From the NCBI GenBank assembly GCA_947475165.1, contig CANJLD010000006.1, forward strand, positions 77,824 to 141,823: a stretch of 64,000 nucleotides of DNA. Reading direction: 5' to 3'. The translations under genes were made by a program, and so were the position numbers. Source of the DNA: Bacteroidota bacterium. GTDB lineage: Bacteria > Bacteroidota > Bacteroidia > Chitinophagales > LD1. Each line of letters begins with the position of its first letter. Within the stretch, counting starts at the first letter, position 1. Positions 2,024-43,197 of the stretch are shown in pieces. The notes beneath the pieces were generated by a model. That model ran no database searches and had not been told where the DNA came from. It saw only the letters and a program-made list of their open reading frames with translations.

Positions 2024-2034
2024 TTTGAGTATAG

Positions 2035-12973: not shown

Positions 12974-13010
12974 AACACCGGTGATTTAATCAACATACAA
13001 TGTGCATTCA

Positions 13011-13018: not shown

Positions 13019-13081
13019 TTATTTAAGAGGCATAATGATAATTTTCTAATTTGCCTGCGATTAGAGAAGTAAACTGAATTT

Positions 13082-17415: not shown

Positions 17416-17569
17416 ACCCCTAAATCCCCTAAAGGGGACTTAATACAGAAATACAAAAGGCACAATTCAATTTGAATTGCGCCTTTTGTATTTAATCTGT
17501 TTCAATCCGCCTAATCCGCGTCATCCGCGTGCCAATGTATTAGCTGTTAAGTCCCCTTTAGGGGATTTA
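17416..17569. repeat. Second copy of the palindromic CCCCTAAAGGGG element, bracketing the fadD/pheS terminator
   Basis: The left arm 17416-17440 is identical over 25 bases to the left arm in bamD. The right arm 17550-17569 keeps 20 of the 25 complementary bases. Here the arms are 109 bases apart and bracket the terminator hairpin and a GC-richer stretch of AATCCGC-type repeats (17504-17532). The right arm ends in TTA, which on the minus strand is the TAA stop codon of pheS. Confidence 0.85.
17452..17490. terminator. Bidirectional rho-independent terminator between fadD and pheS
   Basis: TACAAAAGGCACAATTCAA pairs with TTGAATTGCGCCTTTTGTA across an almost absent loop, with one mismatch. A-rich and T-rich flanks allow function on both strands. 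It lies between the convergent ends of fadD and pheS. Confidence 0.85.
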
Positions 17570-26201: not shown

Positions 26202-26249
26202 GAGGGCTAAGTTAAAATTAACTGCTCATTCTTCTCCCAAAGTAAGAGG

Positions 26250-27905
26250 CTATTTAATTTTTGCTTTTGCCATTACTATCATATCCGAAGCCGGTAAATT
26301 TTCTAGGGCAAAAATCATTTTATCTAAAGTAGAAAGGTCGCTGGTGTCAATGTTTTTCAGGTTGTCTTTTATAAAGTCATCTGATAATTCCAATTTCAGA
26401 ATTTGCACTTTTCCATCAACCTCTTTCAACTTAGTTTGTTTTTCGGTCTCACTCAGTAATTCATTTTTCCGAATGCGTTCGATTACTAAGTTTCCAAGGT
26501 CTGTAAAAGTTTCCAAGTGAGTAACAATTTTCAATTTATCAATGTGCAAATGCCACTCATTTACTTTCGCAATTATATTTTCGAAAATCAAATTGTCTTT
26601 AGTATCAATATACTTCATATTGTTCTTCACAAAATCATCCGATAATTTTTGCCGGAGTTCAGTTATTTTTTTTCGAAGTTCATTTGCCATTGTTTGCTTT
26701 TGTTCACAGTCTATCGAAGCATCTTTCATAATATGATTCGATACAAGATTCTCAATATCCGCAAACTTTTCTGCCTGAATAGTAAAATCAAGTTTGTGCG
26801 CGTGTTCATACCATTCGCTTAGTTGTCCTAAATAATCTTTGTAGTGTTTTTTATTTTTTTTCTGAACCGAATTTGCTTCCGGAAAATTAAATTGTGAAAG
26901 ATGTTCAATCACTGCTTTTATCTCGACCGGTTTCATTTCGCGAATAGAGCAGTGCGAAGGTTGAGAAACAGTGTGGAAATAAACCGGAACATCTAAGTCA
27001 TTGCAAAAAGTTATAAAATCGGGAAGTTCTTTCCAGTTTTGCTGCATGGCACAAACCGATATGCCAAAAAATATATTCCTCTCACGAGCGTATTCTCTAA
27101 ACCATTTCAAATTTTCTAATGTGCGTTCAAACTCTGCGTTTTTACGAATACTTTCGTAAGTCTCTTTTTGTAGCGAATCAAACGAAACATTGATATGAAA
27201 ATTTGTATCCTCTAAAATTCGCTTTACGCGATTGTTTAATACGGTAGCATTTGTCTGAATTGAAATTCTCACTTTCGGATTCAGCTCCATTATCTTCTCC
27301 CAAATATCATAGTAGATATCAATCAAAAATGGTTCACCGCCATAAAATTTTACTTCATCCAAATAGGGAATAAACTCTTCCAGTTGTTTCACGAACGCAG
27401 CATCGTAAGCAATTTCAAGAGGTGGAAGTTTTTCGCGCTTGGCACGAATGAGAGAAGAAAAATCGCCACTGCACATTTCACATTCCAGATTGCAAACATT
27501 GCTCAATTCAAATTCCATTACGCTCGGATATTTGTTGGCGTTTAATGGTTGCTCATCATATTGCTTCGCTTTTACCGCATCAAAATTTTGTGCGACTAAT
27601 TGTTGCTTACAACCAAGACAGCCGAGGGAGAAATCATCATTATGAATATACTCACGCAGTTTGTTCGCTTCTTCACCAAACCAGATTTCTTTAATAGACT
27701 GCTTTGGATATTCGCCTATAACATGCGCACGGTTGTAGCAGCAAACATTCGCTCTACCGTGATGACCAAAATAAATACTCTTGAAAGGCGCATAGCAGGA
27801 ATATTTCTGCGGACCTAACGGGCGGTGCTTATTATATTCCTTCAACAGCGAAGCAGAAAGAGGATTGTAATTGGTTTTCTTTTTAAAAAACCTTTCGAGA
27901 AACAT
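26250..27905 (-). CDS. Radical SAM protein with N-terminal SPASM/twitch-like domain (paralogue 2, extended)
   Basis: 551 aa. Its first 340 or so residues are nearly the same as those of the adjacent paralogue, with the same CNLECEMC cluster and the same N-terminal cysteines. The C-terminus differs: a helical, charged unit of about 90 residues ending SDDFVKNNMKYIDT is repeated as SDDFIKDNLKNIDT, so the module is duplicated. Short footprints around AAAATTAACTGCTCA recur just downstream of both genes, consistent with tandem gene duplication. The pair may act on two related positions of one substrate or form a heterodimer; both are speculation. Confidence 0.8.
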   Translation of the reverse strand: MFLERFFKKKTNYNPLSASLLKEYNKHRPLGPQKYSCYAPFKSIYFGHHGRANVCCYNRAHVIGEYPKQSIKEIWFGEEANKLREYIHNDDFSLGCLGCKQQLVAQNFDAVKAKQYDEQPLNANKYPSVMEFELSNVCNLECEMCSGDFSSLIRAKREKLPPLEIAYDAAFVKQLEEFIPYLDEVKFYGGEPFLIDIYYDIWEKIMELNPKVRISIQTNATVLNNRVKRILEDTNFHINVSFDSLQKETYESIRKNAEFERTLENLKWFREYARERNIFFGISVCAMQQNWKELPDFITFCNDLDVPVYFHTVSQPSHCSIREMKPVEIKAVIEHLSQFNFPEANSVQKKNKKHYKDYLGQLSEWYEHAHKLDFTIQAEKFADIENLVSNHIMKDASIDCEQKQTMANELRKKITELRQKLSDDFVKNNMKYIDTKDNLIFENIIAKVNEWHLHIDKLKIVTHLETFTDLGNLVIERIRKNELLSETEKQTKLKEVDGKVQILKLELSDDFIKDNLKNIDTSDLSTLDKMIFALENLPASDMIVMAKAKIK

Positions 27906-28978: not shown

Positions 28979-30751
28979 CTAAACCCATCGCCTATACCAA
29001 GTCTCCATTACAGCTACTTTCCATAGGCGCCAGTGGTCTTCATTTGCGAGAAGTTGCTGAATGTACCTGGCGTTTACAATTTTGTCTTTCACTAACTTAC
29101 TATCATTCAACCGCGTTTCGTACCACGCCATGTTCATGTAATATTTATCGGGACCAACAAAGCCTTGTTTTTTGCGCTCCAGAATTTCTTTCGAAAAATG
29201 ATTCTTTATATTCTGATACAACAAATGTTTCGTTTCATCCTTCTTGTAATAAACATTTGAACTCAATCCGAAAACGAATTCGCAAATTTCATGGTCAAGA
29301 AACGGCACGCGAACTTCGAGTGAGTTTGCCATGCTTGCACGGTCAACTTTGCACAATACCTGCTCGCCCATAAAACAACTTACATCCATTTGCTGAATGC
29401 TTTTTAAATCCGGCAAATCGTCCCTGAAGTTTTCTTTGTAAAACCAGTCAACATTTTTGTTTATCGCCTGCTGAACTTCGGGATGTAACAATTTTTCAAG
29501 TTCAGCTTTATCAAATCTGCCCATGGCCATAGAGTTTGCATAATACTGAACGATATGCGGATTTGAATTAGTTTGAAAGAGTGATTTCATTTTTTCAAAC
29601 AACGAAGATTGTTGTGGCTGAAATTCTTTTTGCCATTGATAGCCCACCAGCATTTCATCAGCACCTTCGCCACTCATAACTGCTTTTACATTTTTACTTG
29701 CTTCTTTACTTACAAGAAAAGTTGGGATAATAGAAATGTCCCCGTTCGGTTCATCATACACCCACGAAAGATGGTCGAGCAAATCAAGCGACTGCGATTC
29801 AAGAATGAGCGAATGATGATTAGTGCCGTATTGCTTTGCTACCATTTCAGCAAACAGATGCTCGCTTACATTCCAGTTTTCAAAACCGATAGAAAAAGTT
29901 GAAGGCGCATAACCGAACCGACTCATGTAATAGACTAAAGCTGAACTATCGTAACCGCCACTCAAAAAAGAGCCAACCGGAACATCGCTGCGCGCATGTG
30001 TGCGGACAGATGTGAGAAGCAAATCATCAAATTTTTCTATCGCTTCTTTATCTGAAATTGCTTTTTCAGCGAACGGGATACTCCAGTATTTTTTTGTTTG
30101 AACAGAGCCATCCGCTTTAAGTAAAAGAAAATGTGCAGATGGAAGTTTTTTCACTTCATTCCAAATTGTTTTCGGGCTTGGCACGTACCGGTAAACAAAA
30201 TAATCGGCAAACGAAGTGTAATCGAGCGTAGCAGTGACTTTTTCATTTGCTTTTATCGCTTTTATTTCTGAAGCAAAAACAAAATTTTCATTCTGATGAT
30301 AGTAGTAAAGCGGCTTTATGCCAAATCTGTCGCGGGCTAAAAAAAGTTCCTGCTTTTTTTCATTCCAAATTCCAAAAGCAAACATGCCTTTAAGTTTTTG
30401 CAAAACCTCTGTTCCCCATTCTTCGTAACCGTGTAAAATAACTTCAGTATCAGTATGCGAACGAAATTGATGACCGCACTTTTCTAATTCTTCGCGCAGT
30501 TCTATGTAGTTATAAATTTCTCCGTTGTAAGTAATCCATAGTGAACAGTCTTCATTCGTCATAGGCTGTTTACCGGCTTCACTCAAATCTAAAAAGGATA
30601 ATCTCCGGTGACCGAGTCCAACAGTTTTCGATTTATTCAAATAAACTCCATCACCATCCGGTCCGCGATGACGAATGGCTTCTGTCATGGCGATGATATT
30701 TTTTTCATCTACCTGTTTGCTAAAATTTATTTGACCTGCTATTCCGCACAT
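28979..30751 (-). CDS. asnB: Asparagine synthase (glutamine-hydrolysing)
   Basis: 590 aa. MCGIAGQINF places the nucleophile Cys2 of the class II glutaminase domain; RHRGPDGDGVY and LSFLDLSEAG follow. The ATP-pyrophosphatase domain has SFLSGGYDSSALVYYMS and the synthetase pattern MSGEGADEMLVGY. AsnB-like proteins in polysaccharide loci may amidate a sugar acid or peptide rather than make free asparagine. It overlaps the UbiA gene by one base (TGATG), so the two are translationally coupled. Which substrate is amidated is not visible. Confidence 0.85.
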   Translation of the reverse strand: MCGIAGQINFSKQVDEKNIIAMTEAIRHRGPDGDGVYLNKSKTVGLGHRRLSFLDLSEAGKQPMTNEDCSLWITYNGEIYNYIELREELEKCGHQFRSHTDTEVILHGYEEWGTEVLQKLKGMFAFGIWNEKKQELFLARDRFGIKPLYYYHQNENFVFASEIKAIKANEKVTATLDYTSFADYFVYRYVPSPKTIWNEVKKLPSAHFLLLKADGSVQTKKYWSIPFAEKAISDKEAIEKFDDLLLTSVRTHARSDVPVGSFLSGGYDSSALVYYMSRFGYAPSTFSIGFENWNVSEHLFAEMVAKQYGTNHHSLILESQSLDLLDHLSWVYDEPNGDISIIPTFLVSKEASKNVKAVMSGEGADEMLVGYQWQKEFQPQQSSLFEKMKSLFQTNSNPHIVQYYANSMAMGRFDKAELEKLLHPEVQQAINKNVDWFYKENFRDDLPDLKSIQQMDVSCFMGEQVLCKVDRASMANSLEVRVPFLDHEICEFVFGLSSNVYYKKDETKHLLYQNIKNHFSKEILERKKQGFVGPDKYYMNMAWYETRLNDSKLVKDKIVNARYIQQLLANEDHWRLWKVAVMETWYRRWV

Positions 30752-31773
30752 CAGTATTCGTCTTCTGTTTTAAAATTTTGCTTAATAGTTTTTATCGCGT
30801 TTGAAAGCTTATTCCAAAATGCAGGAAAAAATACAAGGTGCAAGAGTAACAAGATTAAAAAGACAGGACTACGAGTGCTGAGAAGAATCAGAAAAAAAAC
30901 GGGAATCCAGCCTTCGTAATAATCGTTAAGAAAATAGAGGAACTTGAATCTAAGTTGCCGTTTAGGCAAGTAAGAAAGTTTCCACCCGCTGAATTTTAAA
31001 TAAGTGAGAAGAACAAAAAATAAAAACGAAAGAAAAAATGGTGGAGAAAAAATGCTTATAGGTACTACAAGAGCAAAAGTGAAAAATAGCTCGAACGGAA
31101 TAAGGTTGTTGATGAAATTCAAAGTAAACAACGCTCCGTTTTTTACCACAAATGTTTGAATACCCGCTTTGCGGTCTTTCTTTCTATCGTCTAACTGATG
31201 CAAAAGAATATTGCGAATACCTTTTAAAGAAACCGCCATAGTAAGCGCAACCAAAAACAAAATTGCGTTGACACTAAAATTGTTGTCAAAAAAATTGAAT
31301 GCGAAAAGTGTTATAAAAACCGGATTGATATGCCCGTAAAACGCATCCGATAGGACTCCCAGCAGACCTCTGTTTTTTAACCGAAATGGTGGTGCGCTAT
31401 AAATTATCAAGGAGATTATTTGCAAAGCAAAAAGTACTGTTGCAATTTTTGAAGTAGGCAGCCAGAAAAAACAACCAATTAATAACGGGATTATTACAAT
31501 TACAAATTGCCATGCAGGGTTTAGTGTTGAAAGCAAATTTTTCTTTCCTGCAACTAAATCAGATTTGGCATCACACCAATCGTTGAACAAATAGCCAAAC
31601 GCAGAAATACTGATTAGGGAAATAAAAAACGCGCCTATTCCAAAAATAAAAAAGGAAGGATAGATATCTTGAAAAATATTTATTCCATTACAAAGCCAGC
31701 AGAAATAAATCCACCCCAGCACCTGCGGCACTACAACATTCCACCAAATATTTGTTCTGAAAATTTTAAGCAT
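30751..31773 (-). CDS. UbiA-family prenyltransferase 1
   Basis: 340 aa with about nine transmembrane helices. The first Asp-rich motif is FNDWCDAKSDLVAGKKN (NDxxDxxxD) and the second HQLDDRKKDRKAG (DxxxD), both expected to bind Mg-diphosphate of a prenyl donor. UbiA enzymes transfer prenyl chains to aromatic or polar acceptors, or to a sugar phosphate as in decaprenylphosphoryl-ribose synthesis. Its coupling to asnB and position in a glycan locus do not match menaquinone or heme O synthesis. Upstream lies a perfect-palindrome terminator. Confidence 0.8.
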   Translation of the reverse strand: MLKIFRTNIWWNVVVPQVLGWIYFCWLCNGINIFQDIYPSFFIFGIGAFFISLISISAFGYLFNDWCDAKSDLVAGKKNLLSTLNPAWQFVIVIIPLLIGCFFWLPTSKIATVLFALQIISLIIYSAPPFRLKNRGLLGVLSDAFYGHINPVFITLFAFNFFDNNFSVNAILFLVALTMAVSLKGIRNILLHQLDDRKKDRKAGIQTFVVKNGALFTLNFINNLIPFELFFTFALVVPISIFSPPFFLSFLFFVLLTYLKFSGWKLSYLPKRQLRFKFLYFLNDYYEGWIPVFFLILLSTRSPVFLILLLLHLVFFPAFWNKLSNAIKTIKQNFKTEDEY

Positions 31774-31854
31774 TCAAGGGGCTACTATGATAATGCTCAA
31801 AAATAACTTACCTGCTTAATAAAAATAGATGCCCGACATTTCTTCACGACATAA

Positions 31855-31900
31855 AACGCAGAAACCTTTTCCGATAGCTATCGGAAAAGGTTTCTGCGTT
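31855..31900. terminator. Perfect 46-bp palindromic terminator
   Basis: AACGCAGAAACCTTTTCCGATAG at 31855-31877 pairs exactly with its complement at 31878-31900, leaving no loop bases beyond the centre. Plus-strand T6 and minus-strand TTTTAT flanks allow termination both ways; the expected user is the minus-strand lipoprotein gene that ends at 31925. Confidence 0.85.
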
Positions 31901-31924
31901 TTTTACTTTAAATTTTAGTGGTTC

Positions 31925-32788
31925 TTAATAATCCTGAAGATCGATTCTTACAGTAACTCCGCCTTGAGTTGCATCAGCTTTGGTATCGCAAGTGCTGGTT
32001 CCGTAATCAATGGTAAGGTCTGGGTTATTGTCAATTTGCGCAACAGTAACACCAGAGATAAATTCTCTAACGCAATTCTGGTCGCGACTCATAAGAAGAG
32101 GAGATGTAATGCTCTCGGTATAATTGTCTCCGTTTGAAGTTACTCCACTAGCTGTTCCGGAAAAGCTGAAGAAATCATCATCTTTAACAGGAGTTCCGTT
32201 GGCTTGCCATTCTACTAACCAACTTACATCCTGTTTAACTATTCTTCCATCGCTTCCGAAAATTAAATTCCCTCCTGATATAGTTACATCAAACTCAAGA
32301 TTGCTGTTAGCATTATTTCCTTTATTGTGTAATGTAAAATTCCCAATTAGGTGATTGCTGTTTATGTAAAAACTATCCATGTCTAAAACTGCAGTGCTGC
32401 CTACAACTCCTAAGTTACCGTGAGTGTATGTAGCATGTATTACGCCCGAAACAGGAGTTCCGTCATTAAGTGTGCACCCGTTGTTAAAATCGATAGTTGC
32501 TCTGTAAGGGTACACAGAAGTATCTGTCGTAATTACTGCGCAACTAGCAAGCAGATTATCAGAATTTTCAGTTTTAAATGCATTTATATCTCCAACACTT
32601 GCACCGAAAGTGATTAAAACTGTTTTATAAACTAACGTGTTCATATAAGTTTTATCCTCTGCAATTGCCTGCACGCTTTCGCTTGTAGGTGTGTTCTTCG
32701 TATTTGGCTGAATGGTCTCTTTCTTGCAAGACGAAAATATCTGCAACAGAGATAAAGCAGAAATAATTATGAGATGGTTCGTTTTCAT
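31925..32788 (-). CDS. Lipoprotein of unknown function
   Basis: 287 aa. MKTNHLIIISALSLLQIFSSCKK has a lipobox cysteine at residue 21 followed by Lys-Lys, so it is a lipoprotein. The mature part is beta-rich with repeated Thr/Asn/Gly segments (ATIDFNNGCTLNDGTPVSG, LEFDVTISGGNLIFG), and three or four cysteines near CTLND, NCVREF and STCDTK. Not recognised. It has its own terminator and lies between the UbiA/AsnB part and the PhyH part of the locus. A separate promoter is likely but none is obvious. Confidence 0.7.
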   Translation of the reverse strand: MKTNHLIIISALSLLQIFSSCKKETIQPNTKNTPTSESVQAIAEDKTYMNTLVYKTVLITFGASVGDINAFKTENSDNLLASCAVITTDTSVYPYRATIDFNNGCTLNDGTPVSGVIHATYTHGNLGVVGSTAVLDMDSFYINSNHLIGNFTLHNKGNNANSNLEFDVTISGGNLIFGSDGRIVKQDVSWLVEWQANGTPVKDDDFFSFSGTASGVTSNGDNYTESITSPLLMSRDQNCVREFISGVTVAQIDNNPDLTIDYGTSTCDTKADATQGGVTVRIDLQDY

Positions 32789-32894
32789 TTTTTTTGTTTA
32801 AGGTTATGATTACTTGTGTAAACGCATTCAGCCTGAAAAAGTTGCAGAAACCTGGCAATCTGTATTACAATAAACTACTTGTTGAAGGAGAGAT

Positions 32895-34760
32895 TTATTT
32901 ACCGGTATTCCGGATAGTATTGTCAAGTAACTCAGCATACCAACTAAGTGTTAGCGATACAGTGCCGGCATTGTAAACTCCATTCTTACTATTGAAATAA
33001 GGATATGGATAATTGCAACCTGCTGCTGCTTCGTCTAAAATTTTTCGCAAAAATTTCATGTTACTACCTGCCTGATTGAAATTGCATGCACTATTATATA
33101 GGACAAAACCTAACGGCAAATCCTTCTTCAAATCCAGCGATTGAATTTTCTGCTGAAAAAAATCGGCAAAGCAATCTGACAACTCTTTGAATTCAGGAAT
33201 TGAATGTTTGCAAGCTCTTGATATATGATACCAAACAAAAACATCGTTGGCGTAAAAATGTTTGGGATAGTCGCTTCTCTTTTTAATTGTTTCTATTATG
33301 AATTTAATTGCGGGAAGGGTAATTTGATTTTCGCCTAAATAAAGCAACACGTTTGCCATTACAGCAATTTCAATATCGTCTTTATGCAGAAAGCCTTTTG
33401 CAATTGTTGATTTTGCAATGCTGCTATTCTTAATTAGTGAAAATAGTTTTGAAGGAGTTTGCAAAAAAGAAACCCTTGGCAAAAACCAGGTATAAAAAAG
33501 TCCATTTGCATTGCGATTGGCTGCAAATAAATCCTTGTTATTAGTAGTTAAACCTTTGACTTGCTGAATTACAAAAGAACACAAAGAAGTATCATCTGCA
33601 TCTGCAGGCACATCATTTTCAGAGGTTCCGTTTTTCCAGAATTTCCACAACCGGTCTTCTTCCACACTTTGAATAAATGCTGCCCCTTTATCCAATATCT
33701 CTTTCGCAATCGAATGTTCTATCTCTAATAATGACAACAAAACGGTTGAAGTGATAAACGGAGAAGATGGTCCTTCAATCCATTTGTCTGGTTCAATTGT
33801 CGGATAATGCTCATAGGTTTGAAACTCTCCTGAACTCAATTGCTGCGCCTTAATGGTTTGCAATGTTTCGTTCAGTTCCCGTTCAAGATAGCTTTTGAAA
33901 TTGCAACGGGTATTTGATTGAACAGATTTTTTCAAGAATGAGTAAGGAAGAATTTCGCTTTTGTAATCTATAAAGCTTAAAGATTTTCCGTGCTCTGGTC
34001 TGCCGGTTTTACCAGGAGTAATTTGCAGCAAAGAATAAAAAGGCGGAGTGGCATCGAATACTTCGACATTTTTTTCTGCCTTATCTAAATGCCTGTAATA
34101 AAATCTTGCAGGTGCTTCTTTCGGCTTAACAACCAATTGAATTGCTTCGCGTGGCTGGTCGGTTTTATTGGGACCGGTATAATGAAGCAAACTGTCATCA
34201 AAGCAAACTGCTTCTCCGGCTTTCATATCAAGCGGCACTAAATCGCTTGCAACTATTTTATCGCTTATTTCTAAAAACGGATTTCCAAAATTGATTCCTC
34301 TGACCGAATCAAATTTTTGGTGACTATTGGGAACTACTTCTATGGTTCCGTTCAGACTATTTACATCTTGCAACGGAATCCATACTGTAATAGTAAATGC
34401 ATCAGGCTCTTCAGTATGCGACCAGTTTTGATGAATTTCTACCGCGCCTTCACCCTTCATTTTATTCCAGTAATTCACCATAATTACTTCGAAATCATTC
34501 AGGTGTTTTTGCAGTGCAGGTTGCATTGCCTTCGATACCTCATCAAACAATTTTATTCTCTTATCGTTATCTGTTTCAAAAAGCGAACTGTTGTAATTGC
34601 AACGGTTTCGGTCTGCATTATTATCGTAAGTAAAAAGCAGCGTTGACAGCAACGATTTTAATTCTCTTACCTCTATAGCATTCAGCAACGGAATAATTGC
34701 ATACCCCTGCTCCCGGAAATGCGCTGCACTGTTTTGTTGTGAAAAAAAATTTCTGCTCAT
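32895..34760 (-). CDS. PhyH-type dioxygenase domain fused to an alpha/alpha-barrel domain with a DxDDT motif
   Basis: 621 aa. Residues about 10-215 form a phytanoyl-CoA-dioxygenase-like cupin: EIHQNWSH (His110, Asn112), VVPNSH and the distal FDDSLLHYTGP (His193, Arg204). The canonical Fe ligand Asp is replaced by Asn112. Residues about 285-615 are helical; SSGEFQTYE, SSPFITSTVLLSLLE and VPADADDTS (DxDD at 387-390) resemble the prenyltransferase/squalene-cyclase alpha/alpha toroid, where DxDD is the acid of class II terpene cyclases. No signal peptide. It is divergent from another PhyH gene, 159 bp away. A terpene-modifying role is inferred; the helical domain could instead bind glycan. Confidence 0.65.
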   Translation of the reverse strand: MSRNFFSQQNSAAHFREQGYAIIPLLNAIEVRELKSLLSTLLFTYDNNADRNRCNYNSSLFETDNDKRIKLFDEVSKAMQPALQKHLNDFEVIMVNYWNKMKGEGAVEIHQNWSHTEEPDAFTITVWIPLQDVNSLNGTIEVVPNSHQKFDSVRGINFGNPFLEISDKIVASDLVPLDMKAGEAVCFDDSLLHYTGPNKTDQPREAIQLVVKPKEAPARFYYRHLDKAEKNVEVFDATPPFYSLLQITPGKTGRPEHGKSLSFIDYKSEILPYSFLKKSVQSNTRCNFKSYLERELNETLQTIKAQQLSSGEFQTYEHYPTIEPDKWIEGPSSPFITSTVLLSLLEIEHSIAKEILDKGAAFIQSVEEDRLWKFWKNGTSENDVPADADDTSLCSFVIQQVKGLTTNNKDLFAANRNANGLFYTWFLPRVSFLQTPSKLFSLIKNSSIAKSTIAKGFLHKDDIEIAVMANVLLYLGENQITLPAIKFIIETIKKRSDYPKHFYANDVFVWYHISRACKHSIPEFKELSDCFADFFQQKIQSLDLKKDLPLGFVLYNSACNFNQAGSNMKFLRKILDEAAAGCNYPYPYFNSKNGVYNAGTVSLTLSWYAELLDNTIRNTGK

Positions 34761-34918
34761 GGAGAATAAAACGACTGTGGTGCTAACGGCATAAGTAAAA
34801 ATAAAACCTGTTTGAAAGCGATTTTATTAAATCTCTCGAATTGAAACAGTTGATTCCTCTCATTCTTTACTTACTGTTTTCGGCTTATAATTGCTTGCCA
34901 CATTAAATTAAATGACAG

Positions 34919-35800
34919 ATGAGAAAGCTTTTCATTAACGACCAGGACGAAAGGTTCTTTCGCGAGTACGGGTATGTGCTCAAAGATTTAATTCCGCTTG
35001 ATACTATTGAGTATATTAAAAAAGAATTTGCGTTACTAAAACCTGATGATGGTTTTGCTCCCGAGCAAAGCGTTCATAATGCTTCGAGTTATCACTGCAC
35101 TTTTCTGGATACTAATTCAGATTACAAACGCAAAGTGCGTCAGCTTTTTTCAGAATATTTAATGCCTCATATTGAAACAGTCTTGAACGATTACAGAATG
35201 TTGAATGGTAGTTTTTATGTAAAACCTTTAGGAAAAGGTCGCTTAGAAATTCATGAAAACTGGTGTCACTTGCAAGACCTTTCACTTACTTCCGTTACCG
35301 CATGGATACCTCTTACTTCGGTTACCCGAAAAAACGGAACTCTTGAAATTATCAGCGGCAGTCATAAACTGGTTCCTTCCATTTCAACTTTTGGTGGCAC
35401 ACATTACTTCCACGATTTTGAACAAGAACTTGAGGATGAATTTTTCGAACCGGTGGATATGATGCCCGGTCAGTGCATTATTTTTGATGACACTCTTCTT
35501 CATTACTCGCGCGATAACTCAGCAACAGAGCCGCGCGCAGCTATTCAAATCGAAATTATTCCCCGCGAAGTGCAGCCCGTTTTATACCATGTAGATGAAC
35601 AAAACCATCCAGGAGAATTAGAAATGCTTCAAGTGAATGCAGATTTTTTCCTAAGCGAAAGCAAGGTTTCGTTTGCCGATTTAAAACGCAAATTGAAAAG
35701 TGTAGGGATGGCAAAAAATGTAAATCGAAAAATTACCATAGAGGAATTCAGAAATTTATTGACAGCAAAAAGAAAAGCTGCAAAAACAGTTACCGGTTAA
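34919..35800 (+). CDS. PhyH-type Fe(II)/2-oxoglutarate dioxygenase homologue
   Basis: 293 aa. It shows the PhyH pattern LEIHENWCHLQDL, TAWIPLTSVTRKNGTLEIISGSHK and IFDDTLLHYSRDN. The distal His195 and the 2-oxoglutarate-binding Arg206 are present, but the first ligand motif is His112-x-Asn114 instead of HxD. The first 230 residues align in motif order with the N-terminal domain of the 621-aa neighbour, which has the same HxN variant. A short helical tail follows. It is the only plus-strand gene in this part of the locus and overlaps the convergent PhyH gene by 11 bp at the 3' ends. Confidence 0.72.
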   Translation: MRKLFINDQDERFFREYGYVLKDLIPLDTIEYIKKEFALLKPDDGFAPEQSVHNASSYHCTFLDTNSDYKRKVRQLFSEYLMPHIETVLNDYRMLNGSFYVKPLGKGRLEIHENWCHLQDLSLTSVTAWIPLTSVTRKNGTLEIISGSHKLVPSISTFGGTHYFHDFEQELEDEFFEPVDMMPGQCIIFDDTLLHYSRDNSATEPRAAIQIEIIPREVQPVLYHVDEQNHPGELEMLQVNADFFLSESKVSFADLKRKLKSVGMAKNVNRKITIEEFRNLLTAKRKAAKTVTG

Positions 35801-36596
35801 GCAAAGAAAAATCAGCAGTTTCTGCAGCTGAAACTTTCTCTCTGAAACGGTCTTCTGTAACATTCCCGTTTCGCAAGTCGCTAATTTGTTTCTTGATAAA
35901 ATATTCCTTGTCTATTGAGTAAACGGCAAATTCATTTGCCGCAGTTTTCCAGAAAAAATTGTACGGAGTTTGATGCGGCATTGCACCTAAAACCGCCACC
36001 GGACGAATAGCATCCGATAAATTAGCAGCCGAACCGTGAATTAAAGCGTGATCAAAAACTAAGGCTTTTCCGGCCTTCATCCGAATTGATTTCAATCTGT
36101 CTTTATCCAACGTGTTTAAATCAAAATCTTTTGACGGATTATTGTAGCACCGGATATGTTTGCGAAGACAATGCGAACCTTCCAGCACATAAAACAAGCC
36201 GGTTGTTTCGTCAATATCTACGAGCGGAATCCATAAAGCGTAAGTGGCATATTGCGTTTCATCAGTGCAGGATGGGTCTTGATGCAAGTAACATTGTGTA
36301 TCAGGATTAACTCCTTTTGCAATAAACACTCCGCCATTTAAATCGGCAGCACAAAATTTTTCTTTAAACGCGCGTCCACAAATTCGTTCCATTTCCAACG
36401 AAATCTTCCAATTCGTTTCGCTGTCTAATGCATACAGATTTGAATAAAGTCCTTTGTGATTGTTTTCAATATTGGCGTAATGAAAAAAAAGATTTTTCAG
36501 CTCTTCTATTTCTTCAGCAGAAAGAAAAGGCACGACAGCATATCCCTTACTTAAAAGTTGCTGATTAAGTGTTTCATCTTTTATAATCTGCTTCAT
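35790..36596 (-). CDS. PhyH-family Fe(II)/2-oxoglutarate dioxygenase
   Basis: 268 aa. CYLHQDPSCTDE supplies the canonical HxD (His105, Asp107); LWIPLVDIDETTGLFYVLEGSH, distal His187 in FDHALIHGS and Arg198 complete the site. The family hydroxylates small molecules and lipids, and occurs in glycan and natural-product loci. It overlaps the upstream 7-TM gene by four bases (ATGA) and is the last gene of the operon that starts with the sulfotransferase. Its substrate is unknown; the operon partners suggest a prenylated or glycan-linked compound. Confidence 0.8.
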   Translation of the reverse strand: MKQIIKDETLNQQLLSKGYAVVPFLSAEEIEELKNLFFHYANIENNHKGLYSNLYALDSETNWKISLEMERICGRAFKEKFCAADLNGGVFIAKGVNPDTQCYLHQDPSCTDETQYATYALWIPLVDIDETTGLFYVLEGSHCLRKHIRCYNNPSKDFDLNTLDKDRLKSIRMKAGKALVFDHALIHGSAANLSDAIRPVAVLGAMPHQTPYNFFWKTAANEFAVYSIDKEYFIKKQISDLRNGNVTEDRFREKVSAAETADFSLLNR

Positions 36597-37339
36597 GGAA
36601 ATTTGATGCCGTAAGCAATTTTCACAAATCCGAAAATGGAAATTAAAACAAAGATGAAGGTCTTAAATACAAAATATTTTGTCCATGCTTTTTTCTGTTC
36701 CTCAAAATATTGCGTGAAATAAAACAGACCAAACAACGCTACAATTATGGAGAGAATACCATAAATACCAATGAAACATTCGAAGTTGAATTTATGCCAA
36801 AGCATGTAACCAAACCGTAACAGGTATTGATAAAATAGCACATACAAACTAAAATTGGCGGTTGAAATCGCAATTAAGGTTTTGAAAAACGAAAAATTAA
36901 AGATAGACATAATGCCGCGCACATAGTGGTAGAAAATAATAGGAATAACAAACACCATTCCTGCGGGAAAATAATTGTCCTCCGTCATAAACGTTGGAAT
37001 GTATTTCATCCATTCATAATGGGCGCGGTAAGGAGTTTTAAAAATGTAAGATACAATCGGAACTGCAGGATAAATAATCAGCCAAATCCAAACGCTGCTG
37101 CTATACAATTGCCGCACTTGTTCAAGCTTCTCTCCTTTCCTTACACCTAAAAAAAACAGCGCAAAAGCGGGTATACACAAGTACAGAATAAACATGTACA
37201 TGTACATGTGCAATTGCGACATCATATTATTATACGGGTTACCAAATCCGTAAATGATAGTTTGGTCTAACACGCAACGTATTAGCGAAATGACGGACAA
37301 AATGCCGAACATTTTTTCAGGAGCAACTGTGCTTTTCAT
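36593..37339 (-). CDS. Seven-TM membrane protein of unknown function
   Basis: 248 aa from the ATG at 37339, which overlaps the UbiA stop by four bases; an ATG at 37351 would add four residues. About seven hydrophobic helices are seen, among them MYMYMFILYLCIPAFALFFL, SSVWIWLIIYPAVPIVSY and YFVFKTFIFVLISIFGF. No family is recognised. Small size, seven helices and a place between a UbiA prenyltransferase and a PhyH oxygenase recall the membrane terpene cyclases of fungal meroterpenoid pathways, but I see no sequence motif that proves it. It could equally be an exporter accessory or integral acyltransferase fragment. Confidence 0.7.
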   Translation of the reverse strand: MKSTVAPEKMFGILSVISLIRCVLDQTIIYGFGNPYNNMMSQLHMYMYMFILYLCIPAFALFFLGVRKGEKLEQVRQLYSSSVWIWLIIYPAVPIVSYIFKTPYRAHYEWMKYIPTFMTEDNYFPAGMVFVIPIIFYHYVRGIMSIFNFSFFKTLIAISTANFSLYVLFYQYLLRFGYMLWHKFNFECFIGIYGILSIIVALFGLFYFTQYFEEQKKAWTKYFVFKTFIFVLISIFGFVKIAYGIKFP

Positions 37340-38181
37340 ATCTGGATGCAATTATAAAAGAACAACCCGATTGCTCCTTGCAGAATATTGAAAATAATGA
37401 GTGACCGGTACAATTTTTTCAGCTTGTTTCTGAAAATAAGAGAGAACAGAGCGATGAAAATAAAATTGTCGATGGTGAACAAAAGCAAAGCCAGCCCAAC
37501 TTTCGATTCGCCTACAAAAAAATGAACGGCAAAAGCAAGAAGTGCTAACAGACTTAATGAAACCGGAATTAATTTTCTGTTTCCTAAACGTGCTGACCAG
37601 TTATCAGATTGATGTGCTAAATCGCCTGTTACATCTTCAATATCTTTTAGCGGAATTACAGCGAGACAATAACAAAACAAATATACAACGAGATAAATAT
37701 TTTGTTCTAAAACCCCTGCAATGGATAAACCAGCCGCAGCCGGTGCCACCATAATGTATGATGTAATTAATACAGCCGTAATCATATTTTTTTTACACGG
37801 CACTACCGGATTGGAATAGAGAATTCCCGCTACCGGAATAAAAAGAATAATGATTATGGCCAATGAATTTATTTCAATTAAAAACGGATAGATGAACGAC
37901 AACGCAATGAGCAACAGCGCATAATGAAGCGCGTTTTGCGATGAAATAATTCCTGCCGGAATGGGACGGTGAGGTTTGTTGATACTGTCAATATCTCTGT
38001 CGAACCACGAATTGAGTGTGTAAACCGAATTGACAGAGATGCCACATACCAATAAGCCGATTAAAATATTTGAAGTGAGAAACTGGCCGGATACAATACC
38101 GGCAGGCACTATAAAAGATAGAAGCGTAATTAGAAAAGCATCAAGGCGGTAAAGCCGTAAGTAAGCCAATACAATTTTCAT
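37336..38181 (-). CDS. UbiA-family prenyltransferase 2
   Basis: 281 aa from the ATG at 38181 (MKIVLAYLRLYRLDAFL); an ATG at 38220 would overlap the ABC ATPase gene by 29 bp and is less likely. First Asp-rich motif: LNSWFDRDIDSINKPHRPIP, with NxxxDxxxD followed by the KPHRPIP signature. Second: KDIEDVTGDLAHQSDNW. Seven to nine membrane helices. The KPHRPIPAG pattern is common in (geranylgeranyl)glyceryl-phosphate and bacteriochlorophyll-type members and others. It is coupled to the 7-TM gene by ATGA. It is not closely similar to the UbiA protein at 30751-31773, so two different prenylations are possible. Confidence 0.82.
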   Translation of the reverse strand: MKIVLAYLRLYRLDAFLITLLSFIVPAGIVSGQFLTSNILIGLLVCGISVNSVYTLNSWFDRDIDSINKPHRPIPAGIISSQNALHYALLLIALSFIYPFLIEINSLAIIIILFIPVAGILYSNPVVPCKKNMITAVLITSYIMVAPAAAGLSIAGVLEQNIYLVVYLFCYCLAVIPLKDIEDVTGDLAHQSDNWSARLGNRKLIPVSLSLLALLAFAVHFFVGESKVGLALLLFTIDNFIFIALFSLIFRNKLKKLYRSLIIFNILQGAIGLFFYNCIQI

Positions 38182-38191
38182 TCGTAATTCA

Positions 38192-39442
38192 TCAATTGTG
38201 TTTCCAATCAAAATCTGCATAGAGCAAGCCTACGCGTTGCATCCCCATTAAATTATTGGCTGAGCGGTTTAATCTTTCAATCGTAATTTTCTTTACGTTT
38301 TTGTAGCGCACTACCAATTCATTCATGTCCATAATTACAATTAGCGTAAGCAGCAGCGTTCCTGAATTGAAATAATTTTTAGGAATAACATAGCGCATGG
38401 TATTACTGCCGGTGCGCTGAACAAAATCTATTTTTCTCGGGTCGATAGTAGAGGCACTTAAAATAATATCCGCCTTTTCATCTGTAAACATCAGGCTAAA
38501 ATCGTAACGCACATCGGTGTTATGCAATTCATATTCTACTTCAATTACCGTTTCATTATCGGAATAAATAGTTACGGCTTCGCTGGGAATTGAATTGATG
38601 GCAATTCCTTTAATGCTGATGTTTTCCCATTTCATAACATCATCAACCTGATAAACACTCGGCACCGGTTTCGCCTGAGTTTGCTGAATAATATCTAACC
38701 GGTCACTTAAATAATCGCTCAGTTTTTCACGCTCTGTTTTCAGGTTAAAAGTGTTTTCAATTTTGCCTTCATTCAGCAAAATAATTCTGTCACACACTTT
38801 CATTAAAAAATCATAATCGTGATTGGCGAGAATGATTGTTTTACCATTTCCGCAAAGTTCTGTAATGCTTCGCTTCGATTTAAAACGAAATTCATCATCA
38901 CCAAAATACAGCACTTCATCAAACATTAATATATCTGCATCTAAAGCAATCACTACAGAAAAAGCCAAGCGCAAGTACATTCCCGAACTATAGGCTTTCA
39001 CCGGTTCATCTATAAAAGCACGCACGCCACTAAAATCAACAATGCTTTCGAACTTTGCTTCTATTTCCTTTTTGGATAAGCCATAAAGTGTTGCGCTGAG
39101 ATAAACATTTTCGCGTCCGGTAAGTTCAGGATGAAACCCTGCACCAACATCTAATACAGAAACTGATTTGCCATAAAAATTTATTTCTCCTTCATCAGGA
39201 AAAGTAACTCCACTCAGAATTTTCAGAAGAGTAGACTTGCCTGCACCGTTTTTTCCGATAATACCTAACACTTCTCCTTGCTCAAGAGAGAATGAAATAT
39301 CTGTAAGCGCATGAAACAGTTCTGGTGAAGATGCACCGGCTGAAAAAACAGAAGAAAGAGTTTCTTTCAAGCTATCTTTTTTGTTTTCGTGCAATCGAAA
39401 ACTCTTTGAAACATTTTTTACGTCCAGAATTATTTCACTCAT
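38192..39442 (-). CDS. wzt: ABC exporter ATP-binding protein (Wzt/TagH type)
   Basis: 416 aa. Walker A GIIGKNGAGKSTLLK, the atypical signature YSSGMYLRLAFS and Walker B ADILMFDEVL are typical of Wzt/TagH/KpsT-like polysaccharide ATPases. After the nucleotide-binding domain, residues about 270-416 form a beta-rich C-terminal domain like Wzt-C, which in O-antigen exporters binds the finished glycan's end. The membrane partner lies 5 bp upstream. The presence of this domain suggests export of a capped or terminally modified chain. Confidence 0.88.
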   Translation of the reverse strand: MSEIILDVKNVSKSFRLHENKKDSLKETLSSVFSAGASSPELFHALTDISFSLEQGEVLGIIGKNGAGKSTLLKILSGVTFPDEGEINFYGKSVSVLDVGAGFHPELTGRENVYLSATLYGLSKKEIEAKFESIVDFSGVRAFIDEPVKAYSSGMYLRLAFSVVIALDADILMFDEVLYFGDDEFRFKSKRSITELCGNGKTIILANHDYDFLMKVCDRIILLNEGKIENTFNLKTEREKLSDYLSDRLDIIQQTQAKPVPSVYQVDDVMKWENISIKGIAINSIPSEAVTIYSDNETVIEVEYELHNTDVRYDFSLMFTDEKADIILSASTIDPRKIDFVQRTGSNTMRYVIPKNYFNSGTLLLTLIVIMDMNELVVRYKNVKKITIERLNRSANNLMGMQRVGLLYADFDWKHN

Positions 39443-39447
39443 GTCTT

Positions 39448-40269
39448 CTATAAATAATCAGCAATAAATTTTTCGTTTCTGATAAAATAAATCAACCCTG
39501 TAATCAGCATAAAAACAGAAATAGAAAATGAAGTAGCTACCTGAATAAAATCTATCTGCCAGCCAATAAAAATCCACCGGTAAAGTGCAATGATGTTGGC
39601 TATAGGGTGGAAATAATAAATAACACTAAAATTATCAGGCACCATTGTAGCAGGATAGAAAACCGGTGTAATCCAAATTCCGAATCCAATCAAAAATGGA
39701 ATGAGGTGATGCATATCGCGAAAGCGGATGGTTAGTGCGCTTAGCCAAATTCCAACTGATAAGCCTACAACAACATTAGCAACAACAACTAAAGGCAAAT
39801 AGAAAATCTTAGCGGAGAAAGGGCATCCGGTTATGAGCATTAGCACAACAAGCAGAATCAGCATTACAGAAAATTCCACCAAACCGTTTATCGCTTTTGC
39901 AAGTGGAAGCACGAGTCGCGGGAATTGAATTTTTTTTATCAATTGCTGATTGTGCATTAGTGCAGTGCCTGATTGCCCTATAAGTTGCGTAAAGAAAAAC
40001 CAACCCATCATTCCGGTGCAAGCAAATACCGAATAGGGAACATGCAGATTAATATGGATAACGCGCTGAAAAAAGAAATGAAAAATAAGAAGTGCCGTGA
40101 GCGGCTGAATGAAACTCCAGAAAACTCCCAGATAAGTTTGCGCGTATTGAATTTTTAAATCGCGCTGCGCAAAAGTAACGATGAGCGCGTGTGACTTCCA
40201 AACCTCGCCAAGGTATGTAAGAAGGCTTTCGTTCTTTTTAGTAATAGATTTATAAAGCGGCAGCGACAT
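39448..40269 (-). CDS. wzm: ABC exporter permease (Wzm/TagG type)
   Basis: 273 aa with six transmembrane helices. HALIVTFAQRDLKIQYAQTYLGVFWSFIQPL is the amphipathic start of ABC-2 polysaccharide permeases. With the Wzt-like ATPase it would move an undecaprenyl-linked or other lipid-linked glycan across the inner membrane. It follows the sulfotransferase gene by three bases, so the three are co-transcribed. Confidence 0.88.
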   Translation of the reverse strand: MSLPLYKSITKKNESLLTYLGEVWKSHALIVTFAQRDLKIQYAQTYLGVFWSFIQPLTALLIFHFFFQRVIHINLHVPYSVFACTGMMGWFFFTQLIGQSGTALMHNQQLIKKIQFPRLVLPLAKAINGLVEFSVMLILLVVLMLITGCPFSAKIFYLPLVVVANVVVGLSVGIWLSALTIRFRDMHHLIPFLIGFGIWITPVFYPATMVPDNFSVIYYFHPIANIIALYRWIFIGWQIDFIQVATSFSISVFMLITGLIYFIRNEKFIADYL

Positions 40270-40272
40270 GGC

Positions 40273-41148
40273 TCAAAATAAATATTCTTTTGCGTAGGGT
40301 TCGAATAGATTTTCGTTTCGAAGTATTTCTGCCTTGCCTTTAAAAAGAGAAATTGTTTTGTCGGACACTTCTAATAATTCCCTACTTGAAGAAAATAATT
40401 TCGTGAACGCATGAAGTTTGCGTGAATACAAAAAGTAAACATACAAGCCATAGATATTTTTCTGAATTGAATAAGGCAGCCAGCTAATTGACCGGCAAAT
40501 GATACTTGAAAGCTTTCTGTAAGATTCCATTTCTTCCTTCTCCAGCGAAGCGTTTTGCGTTTCTGTATCAAAGTTGAACGCAGGCAAATCAGCTTGTGTA
40601 TTTATAAGGCGAAGAAATTCTGATGGGTTTTGTTTCAGCATTTCAAAAGGAAGTATTAAAACATCATTGCTGCCGAAAATTTCACGATAGATTTCAATCA
40701 GAAAATTGTAGTTGTAGAAATCTGAAAATATTTTGCTGTTCGCCTTTTCGAAATCGGGGAAGGATAAAAAACCGCCTATGCTCACATATTGAGAATACAT
40801 GGACTGCCATGCCGAAACGAAACCGCGTGTGATAAGCAAAATTTTTGCATCGGGAAATTCAGCGTGGAGTTGTAATGCTGTTTTCTTCTGTTGTGCTTGG
40901 ATGTCGTAGTCTTTGAACTTCACTCCCACTATATCTAGATTGCCTTGCCAAACACTTAGTTGCTCTTCGCTAATTACAAAGTGCGTTTGCTCTTTTCTAA
41001 ACTCTGCTTTCTGAATTTCAACTTCGCCCGAAAATTTATAGCTACCTAAAATACTACCGGTGTAAAAAATATTTGGATGCGCACTAAAGTAGTGCTGCAA
41101 AAAAGTAGAAGCCGCTTTGGGGTAACCAATATGAATTAAGACTTTCAT
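40273..41148 (-). CDS. PAPS-dependent sulfotransferase
   Basis: 291 aa. IHIGYPKAASTFLQ at residues 5-18 is the 5'-phosphosulfate loop and LLITRGFVSAWQSMYSQY carries the 3'-phosphate-binding Arg and Ser. This fits the P-loop sulfotransferase family, which moves sulfate from PAPS to hydroxyls of glycans, lipids or small molecules. No signal peptide, so it acts in the cytosol before export. It is the first gene of the operon with wzm, wzt, UbiA, the 7-TM protein and PhyH. Starting 25 bp after uvrB ends, it may also be read through from uvrB. Confidence 0.8.
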   Translation of the reverse strand: MKVLIHIGYPKAASTFLQHYFSAHPNIFYTGSILGSYKFSGEVEIQKAEFRKEQTHFVISEEQLSVWQGNLDIVGVKFKDYDIQAQQKKTALQLHAEFPDAKILLITRGFVSAWQSMYSQYVSIGGFLSFPDFEKANSKIFSDFYNYNFLIEIYREIFGSNDVLILPFEMLKQNPSEFLRLINTQADLPAFNFDTETQNASLEKEEMESYRKLSSIICRSISWLPYSIQKNIYGLYVYFLYSRKLHAFTKLFSSSRELLEVSDKTISLFKGKAEILRNENLFEPYAKEYLF

Positions 41149-41172: not shown

Positions 41173-43197
41173 CTATCTATCTCCAAATTTCTCCTTCAAC
41201 ATTTTCTGCATCGTAAGCATTTCATCGCGCAGTTTAGCTGCAGTGAGGTAATCAGTTTCTTTAGAAGCTTCCAACATTTTTTTGCGTGTTGCTTCAATGG
41301 CTTTATGCAATTGAACAGCATTCATGTATTGAACCACCGGTTCGGCAACCATGCTTACTTCTTCTTCCATTTCGGCATAAGGAGAAACGCGAATACTGAG
41401 AATAGATGTTTGCTGCATAATATCTTCTTTGCTCTTGAAAATAGTGAGCGGAGTGATATTGTGCTCTGTGTTATACTTAATCTGCTTTTCTCTTCTGCGG
41501 TTGGTTTCATCAATGGTCAATTGCATGCTGTTGGTTATTTTATCGGCATACATAATAACCTTGCCATTCACATTTCGCGCAGCGCGACCTGCTACCTGAA
41601 TCAAACTTCTGCGGTTGCGGAGGAATCCTTCTTTATCTGCATCAAGAATGGCAACGAGAGAAACTTCCGGTAAGTCGAGACCTTCACGCAATAAGTTCAC
41701 GCCAATCAGCACATCAAATTTTCCGAGACGCAAATCGCGGATAATTTCTATCCGGTCAAGTGTATGTACTTCGCTGTGAATGTAGCGGCACTTGATGCTA
41801 ACGCGCGCCAAATATTTATTCAACTCCTCTGCCATCCGTTTGGTGAGCGTGGTAATTAAAACGCGTTCGTTCTTCTTCACGCATTCATCAATTTCTTCCA
41901 GCAAATCATCAATCTGATTTAAGCTTGGGCGCACTTCAATTGGCGGGTCGAGCAGACCTGTTGGGCGAACCACTTGCTCCACAAAACTTCCTTCGGTTTG
42001 TGCCATCTCATAATCACCTGGTGTGGCACTTACATAAATTGCCTGCTTCATCAAGGTTTCAAACTCAGGAAAATTAAGCGGACGATTATCCATTGCAGAA
42101 GGCAAACGGAAACCATATTCCACCAAATTCATTTTACGCGACCGGTCACCGCCACTCATACCGCCAATTTGCGGAATAGTTTGATGGCTTTCATCTACTA
42201 CCAATAAAAAATCATCAGGAAAATAATCGAGCAGGCAATACGGACGAGTGCCCTTTGCTCTTCTATCTAAAAAACGTGAATAGTTTTCGATGCCGGAACA
42301 ATAACCGAGTTCGCGCATCATTTCCATGTCAAACTCAACGCGCTCTTTCAATCGCGCTGCTTCTACATATTTTCCAACCGATTTAAAATATTCGAATTGA
42401 GTGTTCAACTCCAATTGAATTTCATCAATAATTCTTACCAGCGAATCTTTAGAAGTAACGTAGAGATTAGCAGGGAAAATAGAGGTCATCGTCAATTTGC
42501 CGAGCGTTCTGCCGGTTGAAGTTTCAAAGCTTTCTATTTCTTCAATCTCATCACCAAAAAATGTAACGCGGAAAGCGTAATCAAGATATGGCAGGGCAAT
42601 TTCAATTACATCGCCTTTTACACGGAAAGTTCCGCGCTGCAATTCCTCTGCACGCGAATAAAGCGAGTTAACCAATTTGTGCAGAAAAGCATTCCGTGCC
42701 AACACCTGACCGGTGTGAATACGGATAATTCCGTTTTCAATTTCCACCGGATTTCCCAAACCGTAAATACAACTCACCGATGCTACCACAATAATATCTC
42801 TGCGCCCCGAAAGAAGAGAAGCAGTTGCACTCAATCGCAGCTTGTCAATTTCTTCATTAACCGCTAAATCTTTTTCAATGTAGGTGCCGCTCGAAACAAT
42901 GTATGCTTCCGGTTGATAGTAATCGTAGTACGAAACAAAATACTCTACCGCATTATCGGGGAAAAATTGTTTGAACTCTCCGTAAAGTTGCGACACCAGC
43001 GTTTTGTTATGTGTCAATACCAAAGTAGGTTTCTGCACTTGCTGAATAACATTTGCCACTGTAAATGTTTTACCGGAACCGGTGACACCCAGCAACACCT
43101 GATGTTTTTCATTCTGCTGAACGCCCTGCACCAATTGCTTAATTGCTTCGGGCTGGTCGCCTGCGGGTTGGTATTTTGTAGTAAGGTTAAAATTCAT
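41173..43197 (-). CDS. uvrB: UvrABC excision repair helicase subunit B
   Basis: 674 aa, normal length. GVTGSGKTFTVANV is the Walker A motif, YYDYYQPEAY the beta-hairpin region, and the C-terminal UVR domain is at LHKAIEATRKKMLEASKETDY. UvrB verifies DNA damage delivered by UvrA and loads UvrC in nucleotide excision repair. It is divergent from the DUF5606 gene. Not functionally tied to the glycan locus downstream, though only 24 bp separate them. Confidence 0.95.
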   Translation of the reverse strand: MNFNLTTKYQPAGDQPEAIKQLVQGVQQNEKHQVLLGVTGSGKTFTVANVIQQVQKPTLVLTHNKTLVSQLYGEFKQFFPDNAVEYFVSYYDYYQPEAYIVSSGTYIEKDLAVNEEIDKLRLSATASLLSGRRDIIVVASVSCIYGLGNPVEIENGIIRIHTGQVLARNAFLHKLVNSLYSRAEELQRGTFRVKGDVIEIALPYLDYAFRVTFFGDEIEEIESFETSTGRTLGKLTMTSIFPANLYVTSKDSLVRIIDEIQLELNTQFEYFKSVGKYVEAARLKERVEFDMEMMRELGYCSGIENYSRFLDRRAKGTRPYCLLDYFPDDFLLVVDESHQTIPQIGGMSGGDRSRKMNLVEYGFRLPSAMDNRPLNFPEFETLMKQAIYVSATPGDYEMAQTEGSFVEQVVRPTGLLDPPIEVRPSLNQIDDLLEEIDECVKKNERVLITTLTKRMAEELNKYLARVSIKCRYIHSEVHTLDRIEIIRDLRLGKFDVLIGVNLLREGLDLPEVSLVAILDADKEGFLRNRRSLIQVAGRAARNVNGKVIMYADKITNSMQLTIDETNRRREKQIKYNTEHNITPLTIFKSKEDIMQQTSILSIRVSPYAEMEEEVSMVAEPVVQYMNAVQLHKAIEATRKKMLEASKETDYLTAAKLRDEMLTMQKMLKEKFGDR

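Follow-up and report, generated by a model that had tools for sequence, protein, structure and literature searches.

A PhyH-terpene cyclase fusion linked to a UbiA prenyltransferase in a Bacteroidota locus with a glycan-type exporter

In the drimenol synthase AsDMS (PDB 9m7d-f, 9mhs, 9mlo), a terpene cyclase (TC) beta domain forms the C-terminal part of a two-domain HAD-TCbeta protein (PMC9128629, PMC12365925). MstE (PDB 6sbb-6sbg) is a single-domain class II cyclase whose crystal ligands are, going by the PDB entry titles, prenylated dihydroxybenzoates. Zigralone-type meroterpenoid clusters combine a UbiA enzyme with oxygenases and a terpene cyclase, for which a compact membrane protein is one option (PMC13307353), and certain O-antigen loci dependent on ABC export carry UbiA-like enzymes together with a gene for a GT-C glycosyltransferase (PMC11127046). 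Here we describe a locus with partial resemblance to each of these, found in a stretch of 64,000 nt from a Bacteroidota bacterium of the Chitinophagales (assembly GCA_947475165.1, contig CANJLD010000006.1, positions 77,824 to 141,823; hereafter the window, in whose coordinates positions are given). At its centre are a PhyH domain fused to a predicted class II terpene cyclase domain and a UbiA-family prenyltransferase, UbiA-1, close to an ABC exporter of the Wzm/Wzt kind, an unusual pairing of glycan export with natural-product chemistry in one locus. Among the papers listed in literature searches, a coverage lacking most subscription papers and all preprints, none has a title or abstract opening that describes this gene set; a terpene cyclase-reductase fusion (PMC11574762) is a different case.

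On balance we lean towards reading the locus as one that makes and exports a cyclised, oxidised meroterpenoid-type group, probably glycosylated or glycan-linked. The gene set is more than a chance assembly, as large parts of it recur in other genomes. It is rare but recurring, and ties terpene cyclisation to UbiA prenyl transfer, with glycan-type export in part of the loci.

The fusion gene (32895-34760, minus strand) encodes 621 aa, with an N-terminal PhyH domain, PhyH-1 (~33906-34760; PF05721, 72 bits), that contains H110-x-N112 and H193, and a cyclase region at residues ~286-621 with the motif D387-A-D389-D390; the PhyH-DxDD fusion of the initial annotation is thus present. A Pfam scan returned no match in the window's own cyclase domain, which is therefore identified through its relatives and its fold. 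An alignment begun with five homologues and enlarged to 16 rows gave a profile that matches drimenol synthase in the PDB with E 2e-13, and AstC, squalene-hopene cyclase and copalyl diphosphate synthase weakly. When a structure model of the domain (predicted local distance difference test, pLDDT, 89.7) was ranked by Foldseek, ten drimenol synthase chains came out on top, with squalene-hopene cyclase and MstE next. Z scores reached 29.3 with AsDMS and 24.3 with MstE (at ~10% identity); squalene-hopene cyclases scored 23-24, and no carbohydrate-active toroid exceeded 18.4. The catalytic residues of AsDMS are D331, D333 and Y427 (PMC12365925). Matching residue numbers by eye via the DLDTT motif of the profile alignment, both Asp positions (D104 and D106 of the alignment) are Asp in 16/16 rows and the Tyr position is Tyr in 15/16. 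DxDD is complete in 14/16 rows, L070 and L072 having DxDS (L denotes a locus and G a genome of our searches). The F281 position is Phe in 13/16 and the F318 position Phe or Tyr in 16/16. Taken together, fold, profile match and catalytic residues predict that the C-terminal half of the fusion is a class II terpene cyclase beta domain, as its DxDD motif had led the initial annotation to propose. That it might instead be a non-catalytic or carbohydrate-binding toroid with the fold retained is hardly credible: carbohydrate-active toroids do match the model and DxDS occurs in two rows, but the invariant Asp pair, the nearly invariant Tyr and the aromatic lining are kept, and terpene cyclases score clearly above the carbohydrate toroids.

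AsDMS, the best match in both fold and profile, shares with the fusion the C-terminal position of the cyclase in a two-domain protein, the Asp pair and the Tyr. It differs in its N-terminal domain, a HAD phosphatase where the window has PhyH and relatives have cytochrome P450 (P450), and the family described here is linked to UbiA-1 and has most of the diphosphate contacts replaced. The position of Y373 is Trp in 15/16 rows, that of R425 is Arg in 0/16, that of Y426 is Tyr in 6/16 and that of R513 is Arg in 0/14 (two gaps), R378 falling outside the alignment. Such changes would suit a cyclase that grips another head group, although only as a hint, because the R425A and R513A variants of AsDMS are harmless (PMC12365925). 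The order of the two steps could also be the reverse, the DxDD domain cyclising a prenyl diphosphate and UbiA-1 then transferring the cyclic terpenyl group. The closest solved relative, drimenol synthase, does act on farnesyl diphosphate (PMC9128629), but most of the mapped diphosphate contacts are changed, with the same caution attached, and we regard cyclisation before transfer as unlikely.

Evidence for the association with UbiA-1 comes from other genomes. The fusion was matched in 59/149 relatives, and among the matches listed only those in G074, G009, G006 and G008, together with the window, cover the cyclase half. The cyclase profile matched 17/396 genomes of the order, 14 of these with at least 86 bits, and 13/395 genomes of the phylum, five of these strongly; carriers with a name bear the labels Flavobacteriales, Chitinophagales, Saprospiraceae, Bacteroidetes and, in one case, Clostridia. 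From 25 cyclase loci, four weak ones (G182, G573, G481 and G488; 25-53 bits) were left out, among them that of G481 (L109), where the cyclase is squalene-hopene cyclase-like, leaving 21 strong loci; weak matches in G106, G117, G116, G126, G401, G438 and G442 stand outside the neighbourhood counts. Within 10 kb of the cyclase, the strong loci contain a UbiA-1 homologue in 16 cases, asnB in 10, a PhyH or P450 gene in 12 and a Wzt homologue (at least 170 bits) in nine. An all-vs-all clustering of the neighbours within 8 kb in 20 loci, which was not seeded with the window's genes and omitted L079 as a near-copy of L068, returned UbiA-1 as the commonest separate family (15 loci), followed by ABC ATPases of mixed kinds (13), asnB (9), Wzm (7) and sulfotransferase (5). 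Oxygenases were unranked there, the cyclase, PhyH and P450 families having been merged through their fusions. The best UbiA-1 match lies at most 10 kb from the cyclase in 14/18 carrier genomes. A lack of conservation therefore cannot be held against the initial annotation, since UbiA-1 keeps its Asp motifs and is the commonest cyclase neighbour, accompanied by asnB and Wzm/Wzt in part of the loci. A partner UbiA gene is also found for MstE, for which we know of no glycan export context; unlike the window's cyclase, the solved chain of MstE carries no oxygenase fusion.

Rows linked to the cyclase group together in a tree of UbiA-1 sequences (3 label changes, where shuffling gave a mean of 7.5 and 0/500 shuffles were as low), and seven unlinked rows, from loci free of cyclase, form a supported group. 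Cyclases of the genus mates G009, G006 and G008 form a fully supported group far from that of the window, which groups weakly with L076 and G017, whereas the window's UbiA-1 forms a firm group with its counterparts in G008, G017, G009 and G006. As its cyclase is distant from those of the genus mates while its UbiA-1 is close to theirs, the window's cyclase may have been exchanged.

UbiA-1 itself (30751-31773, minus strand; 340 aa; PF01040, 49 bits with a cut-off of 34.2) has both Asp-rich motifs of the family, NDxxDxxxD-type and DxxxD; N64, D68, D72, D196 and D200 are invariant in 16 rows and D65 is kept in at least 90%. The O-antigen loci mentioned above invite another explanation, namely that both UbiA proteins make polyprenyl phosphoribose for a three-component system of glycan side chains, and that the cyclase has nothing to do with them. 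Those loci pair a GT-C enzyme and a MATE flippase with a UbiA-like synthase (PMC11127046), and the window too combines UbiA genes, ABC export and a PMT-type GT-C gene (18627-21599). A decaprenylphosphoryl phosphoribose (DPPR)-type UbiA-1 was nevertheless set back by family models and a PDB comparison: the 14 NCBIfam families matched by the 16 UbiA-1 rows (E 0.001) do not include DPPR synthase, and the PDB comparison gave 5.6e-7 for digeranylgeranylglyceryl phosphate (DGGGP) synthase as opposed to 0.053 for DPPR synthase. The second UbiA protein, UbiA-2, scores weakly against DPPR models (36 bits) and 80-96 bits against models of the geranylgeranylglyceryl phosphate (GGGP) type. No MATE match was found among the scanned proteins, and the cyclase linkage would be left unexplained, so that a phosphoribose role for these enzymes is very unlikely. 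The locus further differs from the O-antigen loci by its terpene cyclase and oxygenase fusions.

The joining of oxygenases to the cyclase takes two forms. In the window a PhyH domain is fused to it, and in L069 and L076 the fused partner is a P450 (722 and 716 aa, respectively) that keeps the ExxR and heme-cysteine motifs. L072 and L074 each have a P450 gene that overlaps the cyclase gene. In L036 the cyclase is preceded, at a distance of 6 bp, by a PhyH gene in the same frame with one TAG in between, and in L034 a P450 gene sits between the gene for a seven-transmembrane (7-TM) protein and wzm. As two unrelated oxygenase types are joined to one cyclase family, these arrangements argue for a substrate shared by cyclase and partner oxygenase, the two kinds of fusion serving as natural markers of it. 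Other enzymes occur nearby: L106 has an acyltransferase-P450 fusion of 748 aa (11593-13839, plus strand) near its cyclase, and in L068 a WelO5-family protein (1256-2101, minus strand; PF22814, E 2.6e-49) adjoins the cyclase of that locus. The iron motif of WelO5 is HxG. The L068 protein was dropped as a halogenase candidate, having no HxG, HxA or HxD anywhere and HQE at the presumed iron motif.

Three PhyH domains are present at the locus. PhyH-2 (34919-35800, plus strand; 293 aa; PF05721, 62 bits) shares with PhyH-1 an HxN motif at the place of the iron-binding HxD, and PhyH-3 (35790-36596, minus strand; 268 aa; 52 bits) has the normal HxD...H motif. In a survey of 122 PhyH domains, the window's three and those of 30 searched loci, HxD occurs in 100 and HxN in 22, with the distal His in all. 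An alignment of 12 HxN rows keeps the His, the Asn, the distal His and an Arg (R206) at the 2-oxoglutarate position without exception; by family, this Arg would be the one that binds 2-oxoglutarate. Solved relatives have Asp at the column of the Asn in 5/5 among the matches listed (23 matched). Orthologues of PhyH-2 that adjoin the cyclase in L066, L068, L076 and L079 belong to the HxN type, and the PhyH genes that neighbour the cyclase in L035 and L036 fall outside the HxN rows. The HxN proteins could be active oxygenases in which the ligand site is taken by Asn or is open, or they could no longer perform oxygenase chemistry. Precedents for a missing carboxylate ligand are AspH and halogenases of the SyrB2 type. 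The initial annotation had taken all these proteins for Fe/2-oxoglutarate oxygenases, a description that suits PhyH-3 and agrees with the Arg of the HxN rows but meets the lack of the iron-binding Asp in PhyH-1 and PhyH-2. A conserved PhyH subfamily without this usual Asp is thereby brought to notice.

Further PhyH arrays lie on contig C11 of the same genome (L031, 12068-17801, and L112, 64-9921). One of them has an open reading frame (ORF) of 634 aa that matches PhyH, a relative of which in L038 has two PhyH stretches; in the other, a second UbiA-1-like gene adjoins glycosyltransferase (GT)-like and radical S-adenosylmethionine (SAM) genes. Similar arrays were found in many relatives.

For the reading that we prefer, the following route is proposed. 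UbiA-1, by its family, would move a prenyl chain onto an acceptor, and D389 of the DxDD domain would protonate this chain, upon which the rings close. Fused and free oxygenases (PhyH here, P450 in relatives) would act on the same substrate. Going by their families, AsnB would turn a carboxylate into an amide and sulfate may be added by the sulfotransferase. Wzm/Wzt, by family and operon, would then carry the product out, either alongside a glycan or bound to one. A separate, optional module seems to be formed by UbiA-2 together with the 7-TM protein. The order of the steps, the acceptor, amidation, sulfation and glycan attachment are all inferred. Compared with zigralone-type clusters, which have a Pyr4-like cyclase, the window has a soluble class II domain along with asnB, a sulfotransferase and Wzm/Wzt, and an aromatic pathway was not recognised in its locus.

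Several observations weigh against this route. The HxN motif of PhyH-1 and PhyH-2 affects its oxygenase step. Neither an acceptor-making enzyme nor a prenyl-diphosphate synthase could be recognised when proteins of the locus were scanned, and the acceptor may be supplied from elsewhere. Pfam matches among the 16 cyclase rows are sparse and disagree, with squalene-hopene cyclase in one, complement thioester domain (TED) in two and pectic lyase in one. The linkage in 14/18 genomes is partly circular, as 12 of the 16 sequences behind the UbiA-1 profile are themselves from cyclase loci; for that reason most weight falls on the distant G550, G525 and G497, whose cyclase loci are outside the profile (as is L079, but it is the near-copy of L068). 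Long-branch warnings attach to the tree of UbiA-1, and some PhyH/Wzm loci that have no cyclase also contain UbiA-1-like genes. Five of the 21 strong loci lack UbiA-1 within 10 kb: outright in G074 and G599, at a contig end in G002, on a contig of 5.9 kb in L082, and in G017 with UbiA-1 on another short contig. This best match in G017 is on its own 4.3-kb contig, where the order seen in the window (lipoprotein, UbiA-1, asnB, epimerase) is kept. What the initial annotation had proposed, a prenylated and oxidised product that is exported, gains from the cyclase domain and its UbiA-1 linkage and is qualified by the two PhyH proteins without the iron-binding Asp; its glycan cap is a conjecture.

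Also among the contrary observations, Wzt of the Wzm/Wzt kind accompanies only the nine strong loci counted above, several of the others having an ABC protein of ~600 aa with GT4 and GT2 genes in its place. This bears on another explanation, that the cassette makes a free meroterpenoid, perhaps bearing sugar, which leaves the cell as a small molecule, the other genes of the glycan locus serving another pathway. Tailoring indeed varies as in secondary metabolism (P450, PhyH, WelO5-family, AMP-ligase, acyltransferase-P450 fusion), and the distance of the window's cyclase from those of G009, G006 and G008 despite a close UbiA-1 would fit as well. On the other hand, oxygenase, UbiA-2 and 7-TM genes stand in one tight run with wzm and wzt, Wzm lies at most 8 kb from the cyclase in 7/20 loci, and sugar genes (GT-like, epimerase) recur; a free product is possible but doubtful. 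Quite speculative is a more specific form of the exported-group reading, a terpenoid-decorated glycan exported by the ABC system, in which UbiA-1 would prenylate the glycan-terminal residue or its precursor, the oxygenase-fused cyclase would fold the chain, the end group would be an export or anchoring signal read by Wzt, and the HxN PhyH proteins would be a 2-His-1-Asn oxygenase/halogenase family. The fusion, UbiA-1 and PhyH-2 are expressible proteins with which it can be asked whether surface glycans carry terpenoids.

Regarding the layout of the locus, all named ORFs are present at or near the coordinates first assigned, with their Pfam domains. The minus-strand run starts with the sulfotransferase (40273-41148; 291 aa; PF13469, Sulfotransfer_3, 33 bits), followed by Wzm (39448-40269; ABC-2 permease, 273 aa; PF01061, ABC2_membrane, 52 bits) and Wzt (38192-39442; 416 aa, ABC ATPase with C-terminal extension; PF00005, 80 bits). 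This pair has the ABC2 permease and ABC ATPase expected of a glycan exporter, the Wzt_C domain reaching E 0.039 and 14.4 bits, under the cut-off of 30.4. UbiA-2 (38220-37336; 294 aa, start possibly at 38181; PF01040, 86 bits), the 7-TM protein (37351-36593; 252 aa, ATG start probably at 37339) and PhyH-3 complete the run. Gaps are 3 bp (sulfotransferase-wzm), 5 bp (wzm-wzt) and 10 bp (wzt-UbiA-2, from the second ATG of UbiA-2; its longest ORF instead overlaps wzt by 29 bp), and ATGA overlaps join UbiA-2 to the 7-TM gene, counting the ATG of the latter and not the TTG of its longest ORF, and the 7-TM gene to PhyH-3. Given these ATG starts, the tight operon of the initial annotation holds, and so does its coupling of UbiA-1 to asnB (28979-30751, minus strand; asparagine-synthase-like amidotransferase, 590 aa; PF00733, 244 bits, and GATase_7), through a TGATG overlap.

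Two features of the locus are absent from the initial annotation. Between the fusion and UbiA-1 lies a lipoprotein-like gene (31925-32788, minus strand; 287 aa; no Pfam match, lipobox by eye), whose homologue adjoins UbiA-1 in L034 (239 bits) and in L111 (358 bits). Between this gene and UbiA-1, a perfect, 21-bp palindrome with A/T-run flanks (31857-31898, read by eye) is probably a two-way terminator. The locus is flanked by pheS (17567-18598) and uvrB (41173-43197). In the genus mate G017 (L073), the genes that come after uvrB are a sulfotransferase, a cyclase of the same family, a pair of radical SAM genes, and wzm and wzt, so that the locus seems to occupy a fixed place whose content can be exchanged.

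The Asp motifs of UbiA-2 are kept in three rows. The 7-TM protein shows seven hydrophobic stretches by a simple hydropathy count, and its size and topology fit a Pyr4-like membrane cyclase (~7 TM helices, ~250 aa). No match was returned by Pfam or NCBIfam, nor by a two-row profile against PDB sequences up to E 10, and the model from two sequences has a pLDDT of 41.9; a Pyr4-like role (by analogy with the cyclases in PMC13307353) is a lead only. Its family was found in 3/298 genomes, own included, and as the gene adjoins UbiA-2 each time, the pair is, by gene order, a putative module. The third such locus, L086 (G143, contig 148, 10.6 kb), has a further two UbiA genes together with a weak PMT match; no cyclase match was found on this contig, which also encodes proteins without family.

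Two tandem twitch-domain radical SAM/SPASM proteins (24798-27905, minus strand) score 167.6 and 165.7 against an NCBIfam cut-off of 170, and their relatives recur in PhyH loci. Beyond uvrB, the window encodes a protein of 2476 aa (46550-53980, minus strand) in which SprB repeats accompany a type IX secretion signal of the CHU_C kind.

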